A stretch of DNA of 38,534 nt from Synechococcus sp. M44_DOE_062. GTDB lineage: Bacteria; Cyanobacteriota; Cyanobacteriia; Thermostichales; Thermostichaceae. The notes beneath the pieces were generated by a model that saw only the letters and a program-made list of their open reading frames with translations, was not told the origin of the DNA and made no database searches. This document shows positions 26,467 through 31,619 of this stretch, piece after piece. The position numbers were made by a program, and so were the translations under genes. The DNA is taken from positions 1 to 38,534 of the forward strand of contig DVDX01000071.1 in NCBI GenBank assembly GCA_015295985.1, in the 5' to 3' direction. How positions within the stretch are numbered: position 1 is the stretch's first letter; every line of letters starts with the position of its first letter.

Positions 26467-28869
26467 TCACCAACTTAACCCGGAAGTCGGGCCGGGAGCA
26501 CCCGTGCGGGGTTGGCCAGAAGCGCTGGGCAGCAGCTTACGCTCTGGCTTGCGCTCCAGGGACAAGGCTGACCGTTCCAAGCGCGTATCCACCAGTACCG
26601 AGGGAGAAGCCCAGTGAACACGCTCCAGCAGGCGCTGCAGCAGTTGAGCATCAATGATGTCCACACGGCGGGAGGCTGTCGCTGTTCCGGCCACCAGGGG
26701 AGTAGGGGTGGCCTGAAGAGGGGATCCCCCAGCAAGAGGTTCTGACCCATCGCTGGGATCTTTTAGCACCAATTCCGCCATTGCCTGGGCCACCTCTTGA
26801 CCATACACCCCATCGGGGCCAGAGGGGAGCAGATCCAGCCGTCCCTGCTGGGCGGCCAAGCGGCTTAACCCCAGTTGCACAGCTACCACCGCTGCCCCCC
26901 GATCCCCCCGCCTCAGCGTGCGTTGGCCGGCCAGAATGCTCTTGAGTTGGGCTTTGGCCGCCTCTTGCTCGCTGCCGGGCAAAAGTTGCACCAGCCCCTC
27001 CAGCCGATCTCCCTCAGAGCCAGCCTCAGTCTCTGGATGGGGATCCCTGGCCCAGAGGCGGTTCATGTCGTAGAGCAAAATGGCATGGGGCACAGGACGG
27101 CTGGGTTGTTGGGGGCCGGCATGGCCGGTGGCCAAAATCTGCCCCCGGTAGACCAGCGACGTGCTAAAGCCAGAGTCCAGCAGCACGGCTTCGCGGATCC
27201 CGGTTTTGGGCAAAATACGGGCCAGGGTGGCGGCGTTGACATGGGTTTTGGTAACTCCGATCACCACCTGATCTCGGTCATCCACACCAAAGAAAGCCCT
27301 GGGGCGGAACTCAGCGGCGCTGGAAAGACGGAAAGAATCGATCTCCGCCTGAGAGAGGGCATGACCATCCTTGACCAGCCACAGACCGGCCACAAACAGA
27401 TCCGTGACATCCGGCATCAACTGGCGGATGTTCTCCAAGCGGGTCATCGTATCGGGGTCGAAGGGCACAAAGCGGATGCGATCCCTGCCCAGCAGCACCA
27501 AGGGGCGACCGCGCACCACCTTGTCGTCTTCGGGGCGACCGGGGATGAAGGTCTTGTGGTTGGCAGCCATCACCGGCCCCACCATGACATTGCTGGCAGA
27601 GTTGATCCAAGGGATGGAGAAGAAGCTGCCATTGATGCCGGCATCAGCCTGGTAGCGCTGGGCCAGGGTGCTAACCTCGTAGCGTCGCTCCGCATGCACC
27701 GTAGCCGCCCGTCCGCCGCGAAGGGTGAGGACACGCACTTGGTCGATCACTTCGTCGGTCAAGGCCAACGGTTGGGTTACATCCAGCCAGTAGTCGGGGC
27801 TGCGGCTAAGGCTAAAGGTGCGGGCGCCAACGATGGCTTCGGTGATGCGAAACTGGTTAAACCGCCGCACCTCCAGCAAGTTGGGCGATTGTCCTGTAAA
27901 ACCGGGATCCATCGTAAAAGACATCCAGTAACCGGCATCGGCCAGGTATTGCTTTACCCGCTCGTCTCGATTGCCTTCGGGATAGGCGAAGTAGTGGATG
28001 GGGTGGCCCAGCTCCTGCTCCAGCTTGGTCTTGCAGTCGAACACTTCCCGCCGCAGACGGGCATCGTCTAGCACCCGCAGATCGGGGGGATGGTTGACGG
28101 TGTGGGCAGCAAAGTCGATTAGCCCGCTGGCATCCATCTCCCGCATTTGATCCCAGGTAAAGTGATCCTTGCTGGTGGGCACGCCGACAAACCCGGTTTG
28201 CACAAAATAGGCGGCGGGGTAGTTGTACTCCTTCAGGAGCGGGTAGGCGTTCTCGTACAGGCCCAGGTAAGCGTCATCAAAAGTGAGCAAAATGGCTTTC
28301 TCCGGCAAGGGATCCCCGTCCCGCAGGTGTTTGTAGAGCTGGTCGATGTGGATGGGGGTAACTCCTGCTTGTTTAATGGCCTCAAAGTGTTGCCGCAGCT
28401 CCGCCACCGTGGTGTCAAACCAGACCTGTTTGCGACCAGCCACCACGTCGTGGTACATGATGGCGGGCACATAGGAAAGACTGGCCAAGGGATCCAAAGC
28501 AAAGGGATCCCGTTCCAGTTGGGGTTCTGGGGAGATGGGCAAGCGCTGTTGAGCCGCTTTAGCCTTGGCGCGGGGGGCGGGTATCTCGGCTACAGGCAGC
28601 GATAGCCCTGGCAGGCGGCTGACCCAATCGGGATGAGCAGTTGCCCAGGCTACCAGGGCTCCAGTCCCAAACCCCAGCAGGATCACCAGCAAGCTTAGAA
28701 GGTGGAGTAACCTAAGGCGAGACTTCGCCGACGGACGTTGAGGGGGATGAGAAGAGATTTGTCGTGGAGTGGGCGAGGAGTATGGCTGGGATCCCTTTGT
28801 TGACCCAGAGCCTGAGTAGCCTTGGGGCATCGACCCTCCCAAGCGCGTTGGATGTCGCCGAGCTGTCAT
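26467..28869 (-). CDS. Membrane-anchored NodB polysaccharide deacetylase + phosphodiester glycosidase (NAGPA) fusion with PG-binding module
   Basis: The 800-residue envelope protein has a short basic cytoplasmic stretch, one membrane helix (~54-76) and then three modules outside. (1) NodB-type deacetylase (~130-345): AIMYHDVV, ILLTFDD with metal Asp198/199, AAHTVNHPPDLR and FAYPEG. (2) A NAGPA/DUF2233 phosphodiester-glycosidase-like domain (~400-610): GINGSFFSIPW, DRDQVVIGVT and REAVLLDSGFSTSLVYRG. (3) A peptidoglycan-binding repeat (~650-705): LRRGDRGAAVVAVQLGLSRL and GPDGVYGQEVAQAM. A plausible role is trimming an envelope glycan held at the wall. GGGGAG lies upstream of the ATG at 28869; the frame is open to 28932. 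I do not know this fusion from a characterised protein. Confidence 0.85.
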   Translation of the reverse strand: MTARRHPTRLGGSMPQGYSGSGSTKGSQPYSSPTPRQISSHPPQRPSAKSRLRLLHLLSLLVILLGFGTGALVAWATAHPDWVSRLPGLSLPVAEIPAPRAKAKAAQQRLPISPEPQLERDPFALDPLASLSYVPAIMYHDVVAGRKQVWFDTTVAELRQHFEAIKQAGVTPIHIDQLYKHLRDGDPLPEKAILLTFDDAYLGLYENAYPLLKEYNYPAAYFVQTGFVGVPTSKDHFTWDQMREMDASGLIDFAAHTVNHPPDLRVLDDARLRREVFDCKTKLEQELGHPIHYFAYPEGNRDERVKQYLADAGYWMSFTMDPGFTGQSPNLLEVRRFNQFRITEAIVGARTFSLSRSPDYWLDVTQPLALTDEVIDQVRVLTLRGGRAATVHAERRYEVSTLAQRYQADAGINGSFFSIPWINSASNVMVGPVMAANHKTFIPGRPEDDKVVRGRPLVLLGRDRIRFVPFDPDTMTRLENIRQLMPDVTDLFVAGLWLVKDGHALSQAEIDSFRLSSAAEFRPRAFFGVDDRDQVVIGVTKTHVNAATLARILPKTGIREAVLLDSGFSTSLVYRGQILATGHAGPQQPSRPVPHAILLYDMNRLWARDPHPETEAGSEGDRLEGLVQLLPGSEQEAAKAQLKSILAGQRTLRRGDRGAAVVAVQLGLSRLAAQQGRLDLLPSGPDGVYGQEVAQAMAELVLKDPSDGSEPLAGGSPLQATPTPLVAGTATASRRVDIIDAQLLQRLLERVHWASPSVLVDTRLERSALSLERKPERKLLPSASGQPRTGAPGPTSGLSW

Positions 28870-29153
28870 GACCTCACTCCCCACTTCCAATGGCAAAGGC
28901 TTAGCCCTCGCCGGAACGCCTTTTCTCAGCAACAGCCCACCCCTAGGGCAGCAGGAAAAGGCAGCCTTCCAGACAACGGCAAAGCCAACGCTAGCCTACC
29001 ACCCCATCCTCAAGTTGGGGATACACGAGAAATCGCCACTTGTTAAAAAACTACGGGGAGCCCTTGGGCTGTCCAAGCAAGAGAGTTTTGGTTGAAAGAG
29101 TTTGAATTGGCGGCTTTGGCAAAAGAACCCAGAGCTTTTCAGGAAACTACCCG

Positions 29154-29660
29154 CTACTCAAGGTTGCTTAACAGATTGGATTCGGCAATGCCGACGATCT
29201 TGCCTCCCCTTTGGGTGATCCGCTTCACTTCTTGGGAAAGGCGGCTGAAGGGCACTTTGTACTCGACAACACTTCTGCGCACACCGCCTCCCACGAGGCC
29301 GGATACCTTGATGGTGAAGATTTTATCGCTATTGGGTAGCCCGCTTTCTGAGCTGCTGGCCTGAGTAACTTGTGGTTCTGGAGCCGATGTTGCCTGAGAC
29401 CCAACCTCTTGAGGCGCAGTAGCAACGCTCTCCCGCTCTAGGAGCAGCCGCCAACTGCGGGGATAGGCGGGGGCCAGACGATAGACCACTCTGTAGGACC
29501 CGGTCACGTGGTCATCCTCAGACTCCACCTTCACCACAGTTCCAGCCGGAATATCCAGCTTGGCCCCCTTGGACATGACTTTAATTCCCGGCCAATTGGT
29601 GGGCGTATCTGTCAGCAGCTCGACCTCAAAGGCTTGATCCCCCAACAACAACTTGGCCAT
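29154..29660 (-). CDS. CpcD-like phycobilisome linker-domain protein with novel N-terminal domain
   Basis: The 168-residue protein ends in a CpcD-like domain (~112-160): KIFTIKVSGL, VVEYKVPFSRLSQEVKRITQ, RGGKIVGI. This is the small rod-linker/capping domain that is also found at the N-terminus of cyanobacterial ferredoxin-NADP reductase. The N-terminal ~75 residues (GDQAFEVELLTDTPTNWP, AGTVVKVESEDD, YRVVYRLAPAYPRSWRLLL) are of unknown type, joined by a Ser/Thr/Pro/Gln-rich linker. The start is ATG at 29660 with CGGAG about ten bases upstream; the frame opens at 29711. It would attach a partner to the phycobilisome or to phycocyanin. This is inference. Confidence 0.78.
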   Translation of the reverse strand: MAKLLLGDQAFEVELLTDTPTNWPGIKVMSKGAKLDIPAGTVVKVESEDDHVTGSYRVVYRLAPAYPRSWRLLLERESVATAPQEVGSQATSAPEPQVTQASSSESGLPNSDKIFTIKVSGLVGGGVRRSVVEYKVPFSRLSQEVKRITQRGGKIVGIAESNLLSNLE

Positions 29661-29795
29661 CTCAACAACTCCGTTTTGCTCAGCATTCGGTGGCGGGAGA
29701 GCCGCCCACAACCACAGCTTTATCGTCAGACATTCTACCGTTGCCAGGTGCCCACCAGAAACTTCCCGCGGGCAGGGATCAGCTAAAGTCAGAGT

Positions 29796-29824
29796 GTTGT
29801 AGATTTGTTAAGCAGTTGTAGATT
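29796..29824 (+). promoter_or_regulatory. Direct repeat GTTGTAGATT in front of the DUF4079 gene
   Basis: GTTGTAGATT is repeated exactly at 29796-29805 and 29815-29824, 19 bases apart, within 55 bases of the ATG at 29849. It could be a binding site, but no regulator is evident. It also lies between two divergent genes (CpcD-domain protein on the other strand). Confidence 0.3.
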
Positions 29825-29848
29825 CGTCGCAGAGGAAAAGGGATCCCC

Positions 29849-30403
29849 ATGAACCTGTTGAGCTTGGCCTTGCCAGATCTGTCGGCAGCTTCGGATCGGT
29901 TGACTGCTGCCTTGCAGCCCGTAGCTCAGTTTTTTGCTGACCTTAACTTGCCCCAGCCCATTGTGCAGTGGGGTCACCCCTTGATGATGGGGATCGTGGT
30001 GGTGGTGATGGGCAGCTTTGTCGGCTTAACCGGGTGGCGAGGGCGGGCCTTGCGTCTGGCAGCCGCCTCCACAACCTCAGAGGGATCCCTGCCAGAATCG
30101 GCCCAAAAGCCTCTGCTGGATCACCGCAAACTGGCCCCCTGGATGGCCACCTTCATCGCCCTGGGCTACACGGGCGGCATCCTCTCCCTGGTGATGCAAG
30201 GGAAGCCGCTGTTGAGCAGTCCCCATTTTTGGACGGGATCCCTGGTGTTGCTGTTGTTGGCGGTGAATGGAGCTTTGTCTCTCAGTGGCTTTGGGGGCAA
30301 TCGCGAGGCTCTGCGCACCACCCATGCCTATGTGGGCAGCCTCATCCTGTGCGTGCTGTTTGCCCATGCCCTGTTCGGGCTCAAGCTGGGCCTGTCTTTG
30401 TAG
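29849..30403 (+). CDS. DUF4079 family membrane protein
   Basis: The 184-residue integral membrane protein has about five hydrophobic segments (PLMMGIVVVVMGSFVGL, WMATFIALGYTGGILSLVM, WTGSLVLLLLAVNGALSL, THAYVGSLILCVLFAHALFGL) and conserved His residues in QWGHP, DHRKLAP, SSPHFWTG and TTHAY that suggest a heme- or metal-binding cytochrome b561-like fold. The family is common in cyanobacteria and its function is not known. GAGGAAAAGGG precedes the ATG. Length is normal. Confidence 0.8.
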   Translation: MNLLSLALPDLSAASDRLTAALQPVAQFFADLNLPQPIVQWGHPLMMGIVVVVMGSFVGLTGWRGRALRLAAASTTSEGSLPESAQKPLLDHRKLAPWMATFIALGYTGGILSLVMQGKPLLSSPHFWTGSLVLLLLAVNGALSLSGFGGNREALRTTHAYVGSLILCVLFAHALFGLKLGLSL

Positions 30404-30464: not shown

Positions 30465-31619
30465 CTAGCGATGGGGCTGCAGAGATTGCAGCAGGTGGAG
30501 CACGGTGAAAACGCCGATACCCAGCAGGACGATGGCTCCCACTAGGTAGCTGCTGGCATTGGAGCGCTGCTCTTCCAAGAGGGTTTCAGGGGACTTGGGC
30601 GCAATCATAAACCTTCCCCCAGAAAGGGGTTTTCGGATCACGGGATCCCCTGCCTCAAAGCGCGCCTGCCCCATGGCAAAGGCCATTGCATCCGCGGGAA
30701 TCACCCATTCTTTATAGATGAAAGATCGAGTGGAGCGATTTTCTGTTCTCACCTGGGAAAAGTAGCGCTTGAGATCGAAGTTGAACCGGCTGGGGCCTTT
30801 TCCGGGAAAAACATGCTCATCCACAACCGCCATGGCCTCTACCTCCGCACCCGTGGGATCCACCCTCACCCTTCCGGTTTCGTCCTCGATGAAAAAAGGG
30901 ATCTGGCGAACCACCGAGTGAAGGGTTTCATTTCTCGTTCTCGTCTCTCTCTCCAGGAGGTATTCCCGACCTGTACTTGGATCGAAGTACACGTTGTTGT
31001 AGTCCTTTTGAGGAGAGCCTGCCTCAGAAAACGGTGATTTTTCGGGATAGGCTGGAGAGCCAAGCTTTTGTGGGTAATCGGGGTAACCAGGCTTTTTCTG
31101 GAAAGAATCTGAACCGGGGTAGCCGGAGCCGGGCTTTTGCGGAAAGGATGCCGCGCCGAAGTAGCCAGGGTTGGACTTTTGTGGGAAAGAATCGGAGTAG
31201 CCGGGATCAACCCTTTTCTGGAAAGAACTGGAGTCAGAGTAGCCCAAGCTGGGCTTTTTTCCGGCCATTCTCCCCGGATAGGATTTTGTCCGGGATCCCA
31301 GACGCAGAGCGTTCTGGTATTCCCCTTCGCTGATCCGTTCGCTGTAGGTTACATCGCCTTCGCTATTCAAATACTTTCGATAGCATTCGACTTCATCATA
31401 CTCCCAAGAGATCTCGGACTTGTAATAGACACAACCCTGCCATAAACTTGGGCCAAGTTTGCTCCTTTTGCCTGGGGACTGGTCTGACCGAGATTGCGAA
31501 GCTCGGCTACCTTGAGCAGCCGAGTTGTAGAGAGCTGTTGAACCAACCTTTGGGAGCGCAAATAATGAAAACAGAGAGCCAGGAAGACAAAGCAGCCCAA
31601 GCAGCGTCAGCCAGTTCAT
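30465..31619 (-). CDS. Prokaryotic GIDE-domain membrane protein with Tyr-rich tandem repeats
   Basis: The 384-residue protein has an N-terminal membrane helix (MNWLTLLGLLCLPGSLFSLF), a GIDE-like domain (~225-350) with RQIPFFIEDETGRVRVDPTGAEV, YKEWVIPADAMAFAMGQ and FMIAPKSPETLLEEQRS, and a second membrane helix (~358-377). This is the layout of MUL1/GIDE, a mitochondrial E3 ligase whose prokaryotic relatives lack the RING finger, as this one does. Between the first helix and the GIDE domain there is an extra ~85-residue region of degenerate GYxDSxxFPQK repeats, which I have not seen in such proteins. GGAAGG lies upstream of the ATG at 31619. Confidence 0.82.
   Translation of the reverse strand: MNWLTLLGLLCLPGSLFSLFALPKVGSTALYNSAAQGSRASQSRSDQSPGKRSKLGPSLWQGCVYYKSEISWEYDEVECYRKYLNSEGDVTYSERISEGEYQNALRLGSRTKSYPGRMAGKKPSLGYSDSSSFQKRVDPGYSDSFPQKSNPGYFGAASFPQKPGSGYPGSDSFQKKPGYPDYPQKLGSPAYPEKSPFSEAGSPQKDYNNVYFDPSTGREYLLERETRTRNETLHSVVRQIPFFIEDETGRVRVDPTGAEVEAMAVVDEHVFPGKGPSRFNFDLKRYFSQVRTENRSTRSFIYKEWVIPADAMAFAMGQARFEAGDPVIRKPLSGGRFMIAPKSPETLLEEQRSNASSYLVGAIVLLGIGVFTVLHLLQSLQPHR
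31002..31259 (-). repeat. Degenerate Tyr/Pro/Gln-Lys repeats inside the GIDE gene
   Basis: About seven units (residues ~121-206) follow the pattern [P/L]GY-x-[D/G]-S-x-F-[P]QK: SLGYSDSSSFQK, DPGYSDSFPQK, NPGYFGAASFPQK, GSGYPGSDSFQK, PGYPDYPQK, SPAYPEK and FSEAGSPQK. Unit length varies from 7 to 14 residues, so it expands and contracts by whole codons. Confidence 0.75.

Follow-up and report, generated by a model that had tools for sequence, protein, structure and literature searches.

The CpcD fusion protein of 168 residues encoded in the window (the whole 38,534-nt contig analysed here, from genome G000) is probably a phycobilisome rod-tip docking protein that is specific to an early-branching cyanobacterial order, which we take to be Thermostichales, and whose N-terminal barrel recruits a partner. 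In the proposed mechanism, the C-terminal CpcD domain would anchor the protein at the end of phycocyanin rods, a flexible linker would hold the N-terminal beta barrel off the rod, and the barrel would bind a partner protein or small ligand, so that the partner would be brought next to the antenna. We infer that the fusion protein sits on the rods in the cell and that its barrel serves for binding and is neither an enzyme nor simply a cap, with FNR as a reasonable first candidate for the partner. The CpcD docking domain is already known, and the new domain is the N-terminal barrel. To our knowledge, FNR is the only known non-antenna cargo of a CpcD domain, and a second, unrelated cargo module would mark the rod tip as a general docking site. 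No publication on the CpcD fusion protein was found in the open-licence literature searched, and it may be published elsewhere.

The fusion gene and its distribution

The features of the locus are as follows.

29154..29660, minus strand: CpcD fusion gene, 168 aa, ATG start, stop codon included
29669..29672, minus strand: GGAG, probable ribosome binding site, kept in 5/5 genomes of the genus examined
29430..29660, minus strand: N-terminal domain (residues 1-77), a beta barrel of six strands in the prediction, PilZ-like in fold and lacking the c-di-GMP motif
29331..29429, minus strand: linker, residues 78-110, delimited by alignment, composition, dN/dS and low pLDDT
29184..29324, minus strand: CpcD domain (PF01383), residues 113-159, from the Pfam match, the strand-strand-helix-strand order in the model and Foldseek
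29849..30403, plus strand: DUF4079 membrane-type protein (PF13301), divergent neighbour, 115.7 bits against 31.4
29801..29812, no strand: AGATTTGTTAAG within the shared divergent intergenic stretch, identical in 5/5 genus genomes aligned

The gene named in the original prediction coincides exactly with the ATG-started minus-strand frame. The longest frame at this locus in the open reading frame list begins at TTG 29711; ATG 29660 is preferred because the GGAG at -12 to -9 of this codon is kept in all five genus genomes examined and the alignment of the orthologues begins at its Met. Among five genomes (10 pairs), dN/dS ranges over 0.06-0.22 in the N-terminal domain, 0.05-0.30 in the CpcD domain and, for the eight computable pairs, 0.13-0.47 in the linker, where two saturated pairs were dropped. 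Purifying selection acts on both domains and more loosely on the linker. These values are well below 1, and the CpcD fusion is therefore a real gene; moreover, the pattern matches that expected of a docking protein, namely two constrained domains and a loose tether. The linker is rich in Ser, Ala, Pro and Gln, changes fast, varies in length among the aligned orthologues and has a pLDDT below 50 at residues 79-105.

Protein matches at E<=1e-6 were found in 25 of the 388 genomes of the class, and eight of these 25 genomes have full-length matches. In the remaining 17, the match begins at residue 62 or further on and covers the CpcD part; most of these matches are rod linkers as judged by frame length. 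A profile of the N-terminal domain recovered the same eight of 388 genomes and no further ones; outside this order the domain was therefore not observed, and every copy is joined to CpcD. Full-length orthologues are thus present in 8/9 genomes of the order. In the ninth (G057), the assembly breaks at the locus and the DUF4079 gene is cut by the contig start, its end lying at bases 1-105 of the contig, so the fusion gene may lie in the gap and its absence is not demonstrated. A search of the genome_contigs set gave one relative, L001, whose protein equals that of L009 (G079); the two were counted once. Among viral contigs, none of 33 pattern matches was a relative.

In line with the suggestion that the gene lies away from any phycobiliprotein operon, no phycobilisome gene was seen near it, a point that counts against the docking reading. 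The other CpcD genes of the window genome are on contigs C15, C35 and C55 and its PBS_linker genes on contigs C7, C15, C35 and C71, all of them other contigs, and a Pfam scan of 20 further frames of the window gave no phycobiliprotein.

The CpcD domain and the FNR of the order

The CpcD domain recognized in the original prediction was recovered by PF01383 (residues 113-159, E 7.1e-12, 45.9 bits against a cut-off of 27), and all eight family members match this model. In a 45-row alignment of CpcD domains, R128 and S130 of the V/I-R-[RK]-S motif are kept in 8/8 members, 3/3 FNR rows and 11/11 CpcD rows, and ApcC has Q and T in these columns (6/6). R140 is likewise shared by the eight members and the FNR and CpcD rows, and ApcC has N or S there; the ApcC-type features (LQNT motif; W at the L141 position) are absent from the CpcD domain of the fusion. 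In a tree of CpcD domains, the family sits with the rod proteins, apart from ApcC (ApcC branch 99/98), with a support of 60/70 for the family branch from few columns. Judged by its sequence, the domain is of the rod type, not of the core (ApcC) type. A simple equivalence with CpcD is argued against by K146, which is present in 7/8 members at a position where Q stands in 28/28 CpcD, CpcC and FNR rows, and by a loop before VR[RK]S that is shorter than in the CpcD and FNR rows. The pI of the CpcD stretch is 10.6 and that of the N-terminal domain 5.8.

The predicted structure is consistent with this assignment. The model of the full-length protein is poor (pLDDT 54), with a pLDDT of 71-75 in four of the five blocks of ten residues in the CpcD part. 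This part consists of E114-120, E131-137, H138-150 and E154-160, a strand-strand-helix-strand order that is the same as the CpcD topology (beta ribbon, helix, beta strand) described in an excerpt of PMC7994580. In a Foldseek search with this low-confidence model, 44 of the best 50 matches listed are phycobilisome chains, including the FNR CpcD domain in CpcL-PBS (8hfq); the best E among the matches listed is 4.4e-3, and none is under 0.001. Structure prediction, proposed as a check of the original prediction, therefore yielded a structural match to CpcD rather than none.

Among the closest known parallels is the three-domain FNR (PetH, FNR-L), which also combines a CpcD domain, a flexible linker and a non-antenna module. 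Its CpcD domain docks this module on rod ends, according to the excerpts of PMC9319322 and PMC10322944; the latter places the domain at the distal rod end, in contact with the Pfam00427 domain of CpcC2, and the former states that FNR without the CpcD domain does not bind phycobilisomes. Unlike in the three-domain FNR, the CpcD domain of the fusion is C-terminal rather than N-terminal, and the FAD and NADP domains are absent: NF045929 (FNR/PetH) matches residues 126-162 only, with 22.1 bits against 600. Nor does the CpcD domain of the fusion group with that of FNR. A tree constrained to join the two is 16.25 log units worse (p-AU 0.043, from a few-column tree with a family branch of 60/70), and the domain is therefore read as rod-type and not as the lost domain of FNR. 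Derivation from the FNR CpcD domain was considered and is disfavoured by this one-clade test; on the sequence comparison, the fusion's domain is probably not derived from it.

FNR (PetH) has no CpcD domain in any of the nine genomes of the order. NF045929 is matched from model position 96-111 onwards in eight of them and from position 54 in G101, where this start is reached only by reading through two stops, and none reaches the cut-off. The PetH frame of the window genome (L103, contig C73) begins directly at the FAD part. Of the 388 genomes of the class, 258 score at or above the three-domain FNR cut-off, so most have the long FNR, and a genome below the cut-off may still carry a fragmented or divergent long FNR. 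Genomes of f14, which we take to be Gloeobacteraceae (Gloeobacter), and of f33 score as short FNR, yet they are without the CpcD fusion gene, so the short FNR does not demand this gene. The co-occurrence of a short FNR and a separate CpcD fusion in the order is suggestive only. An excerpt of PMC10696076 notes the short FNR in Gloeobacteria and places the gain of the CpcD domain by FNR with or after the appearance of hemidiscoidal phycobilisomes. To this picture, as far as that excerpt goes, our data add a further order that has CpcD, CpcC and ApcC genes, the short FNR in 9/9 genomes and a CpcD fusion of its own, which bears on the timing of FNR joining the antenna.

One alternative is a split tether, in which the CpcD-less FNR of the order would be the partner of the barrel and the two together would do the job of the three-domain FNR. 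The short FNR throughout the order and the long form in most cyanobacteria are in favour of this explanation, but the fusion gene and PetH are on different contigs of the window genome, the CpcD domain is not nearest to that of FNR, and f14 and f33 manage the short FNR with no fusion gene; we regard it as unlikely. Similarly improbable is a broader version of a two-protein tether, in which the PilZ-like barrel and the rod-type CpcD domain would form an adapter that carries an electron-transfer partner to rod tips, be it FNR or, for instance, the DUF4079 product, the FNR of the order either never having gained its CpcD domain or having lost it. If true, it would be an independent solution for placing redox chemistry on the antenna.

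The fusion protein could instead be a specialized rod cap whose sole role is to terminate rods, in competition with CpcD or CpcC for the last site under some condition, with the barrel as a spacer or shield. Its architecture lends some weight to this explanation: as in the CpcC rod linker, the CpcD domain is C-terminal and follows an N-terminal domain, and the rod type of the CpcD domain is that of the CpcD rod-capping linker. Unlike CpcC, however, the fusion has a 77-residue predicted beta barrel in place of the PBS_linker domain; PF00427 gave no row up to E 10, and the locus is not among the six PF00427 places of the genome. Unlike the CpcD rod-capping linker, it carries an extra N-terminal domain and a linker, and with the equivalog model of the CpcD rod cap, NF058509, it scores just 29.3 bits where the cut-off is 80. 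Moreover, the genome already has CpcD, the barrel is about as conserved as the CpcD domain within the genus, and a P-A-x-P-R-x-W-R stretch in the N-terminal domain that is invariant in 8/8 members exceeds the needs of a spacer. A pure capping role thus has a low probability, about that of the FNR tethers.

It is less probable still that the protein acts at another place in the cell, its CpcD-like domain having been co-opted for a role away from the phycobilisome. The gene does lie apart from the other antenna linker genes, and at some positions the domain departs from every CpcD, CpcC and FNR row, but the rod-type residues are invariant in all eight members.

A second CpcD fusion is encoded in G043, which we take to be Synechococcus PCC 7336 (L137/L033; C1, about 2180759-2180983), and consists of a small N-terminal domain, a linker and CpcD. 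Its CpcD part scores 25.7 alone (cut-off 27) and 27.1 in the genome search. The N-terminus is not the barrel and weakly resembles the N-terminus of IF-2, with a best E of 0.0099 and six IF-2 chains on top of the PDB list. This fusion is independent of the family studied here and supports the re-use of CpcD as a docking module as a general idea.

The N-terminal barrel

The N-terminal domain had been described as beta-rich and of no known family, and both descriptions hold. In the eight members, only chance-level Pfam rows were found outside CpcD, the best being Urease_beta (E 0.032) and TrAA12 (E 0.077). The hits to NCBIfam (best E 0.022) and PHROGs (best E 0.18) are scattered, the N-terminal profile, run against PDB sequences, gave a best E of 1 to an unrelated entry, and BFVD gave no match at E<=0.001. 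Predicted alone with AF2 from a two-sequence alignment (79% identical), on which the barrel fold rests, the domain has six strands and no helix, with a pLDDT of 81.6 and a pTM of 0.68. The domain is thus conserved and predicted to fold alone as a barrel.

The nearest solved folds of this model are PilZ domains. In VIA-align, the PilZ protein 2gjg was matched with Z 9.0 and an rmsd of 2.6 over 74 aligned residues, and PilZ-containing chains fill the top seven rows, with Z 9.0 to 7.8. The phage lambda neck protein reaches Z 7.8, close after PilZ, and a Z under 8 can reflect a common arrangement. Foldseek gave weak E values only, of 0.06 for an uncharacterised Legionella protein and 0.12 for the first PilZ row. 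The c-di-GMP motif of PilZ is RxxxR ... [DN]xSxxG; this pair is present in 0/8 members, compared with 6/6 PilZ controls. The fusion also differs from PilZ domains in having no PilZ family match in Pfam at E<=1 for any of the eight members and no profile similarity, the hhalign probability being 0.3% with alignments that are shallow on both sides. Homology to PilZ by sequence was therefore rejected on the hhalign result and the missing motif pair, and the resemblance in fold was retained; on the basis of the model, we name the domain for its PilZ-like barrel and do not count it as a PilZ domain.

If the model is right, a small barrel of this kind that lacks the c-di-GMP motif points to a binding module more than to an enzyme. 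The idea that the protein docks an activity on the phycobilisome is accordingly kept in part. The rod-type residues and the Foldseek matches support docking, the former in sequence and the latter in the predicted fold. The N-terminal domain has no enzyme signature and so lends no support to a cargo that is an activity. A second-messenger or redox sensor, in which the barrel would bind a nucleotide or another ligand at the rod tip and signal to the antenna or to DUF4079, is in keeping with the leading PilZ rows and with the pairing with a divergent DUF4079 gene in 7/8 orthologues, but is very unlikely given the missing motif pair, the lack of a PilZ family match or profile similarity, and a phage neck protein that scores close behind PilZ.

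The gene neighbourhood

The DUF4079 gene beside the fusion gene, which encodes what we take to be possibly a haem-binding membrane protein, keeps its divergent position in three genera, G043 being the one exception. In the open-licence literature searched, the word DUF4079 occurs in a single paper. Three histidines are kept in 7/7 rows of the DUF4079 alignment and two more in 6/7; the row of G101 departs at the C-terminus, where the frame may be shifted. A promoter scan of the region found none, and a terminator scan gave no more sites than shuffled sequences.

The near-repeat TTGTAGATTTGT / TTGTAGATTCGT, a possible regulatory site, lies at 29797-29827, upstream of the DUF4079 gene, and its first copy overlaps the kept AGATTTGTTAAG. 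Further along the window, 30465-31619 encodes a bacterial protein with a GIDE-like domain (PF12483, named E3 ubiquitin ligase) and a repetitive middle rich in Ser, Pro, Gly, Lys, Phe and Gln. On the other side of the fusion gene, 26467-28932 encodes a single protein that joins a polysaccharide deacetylase to a phosphodiester glycosidase domain.
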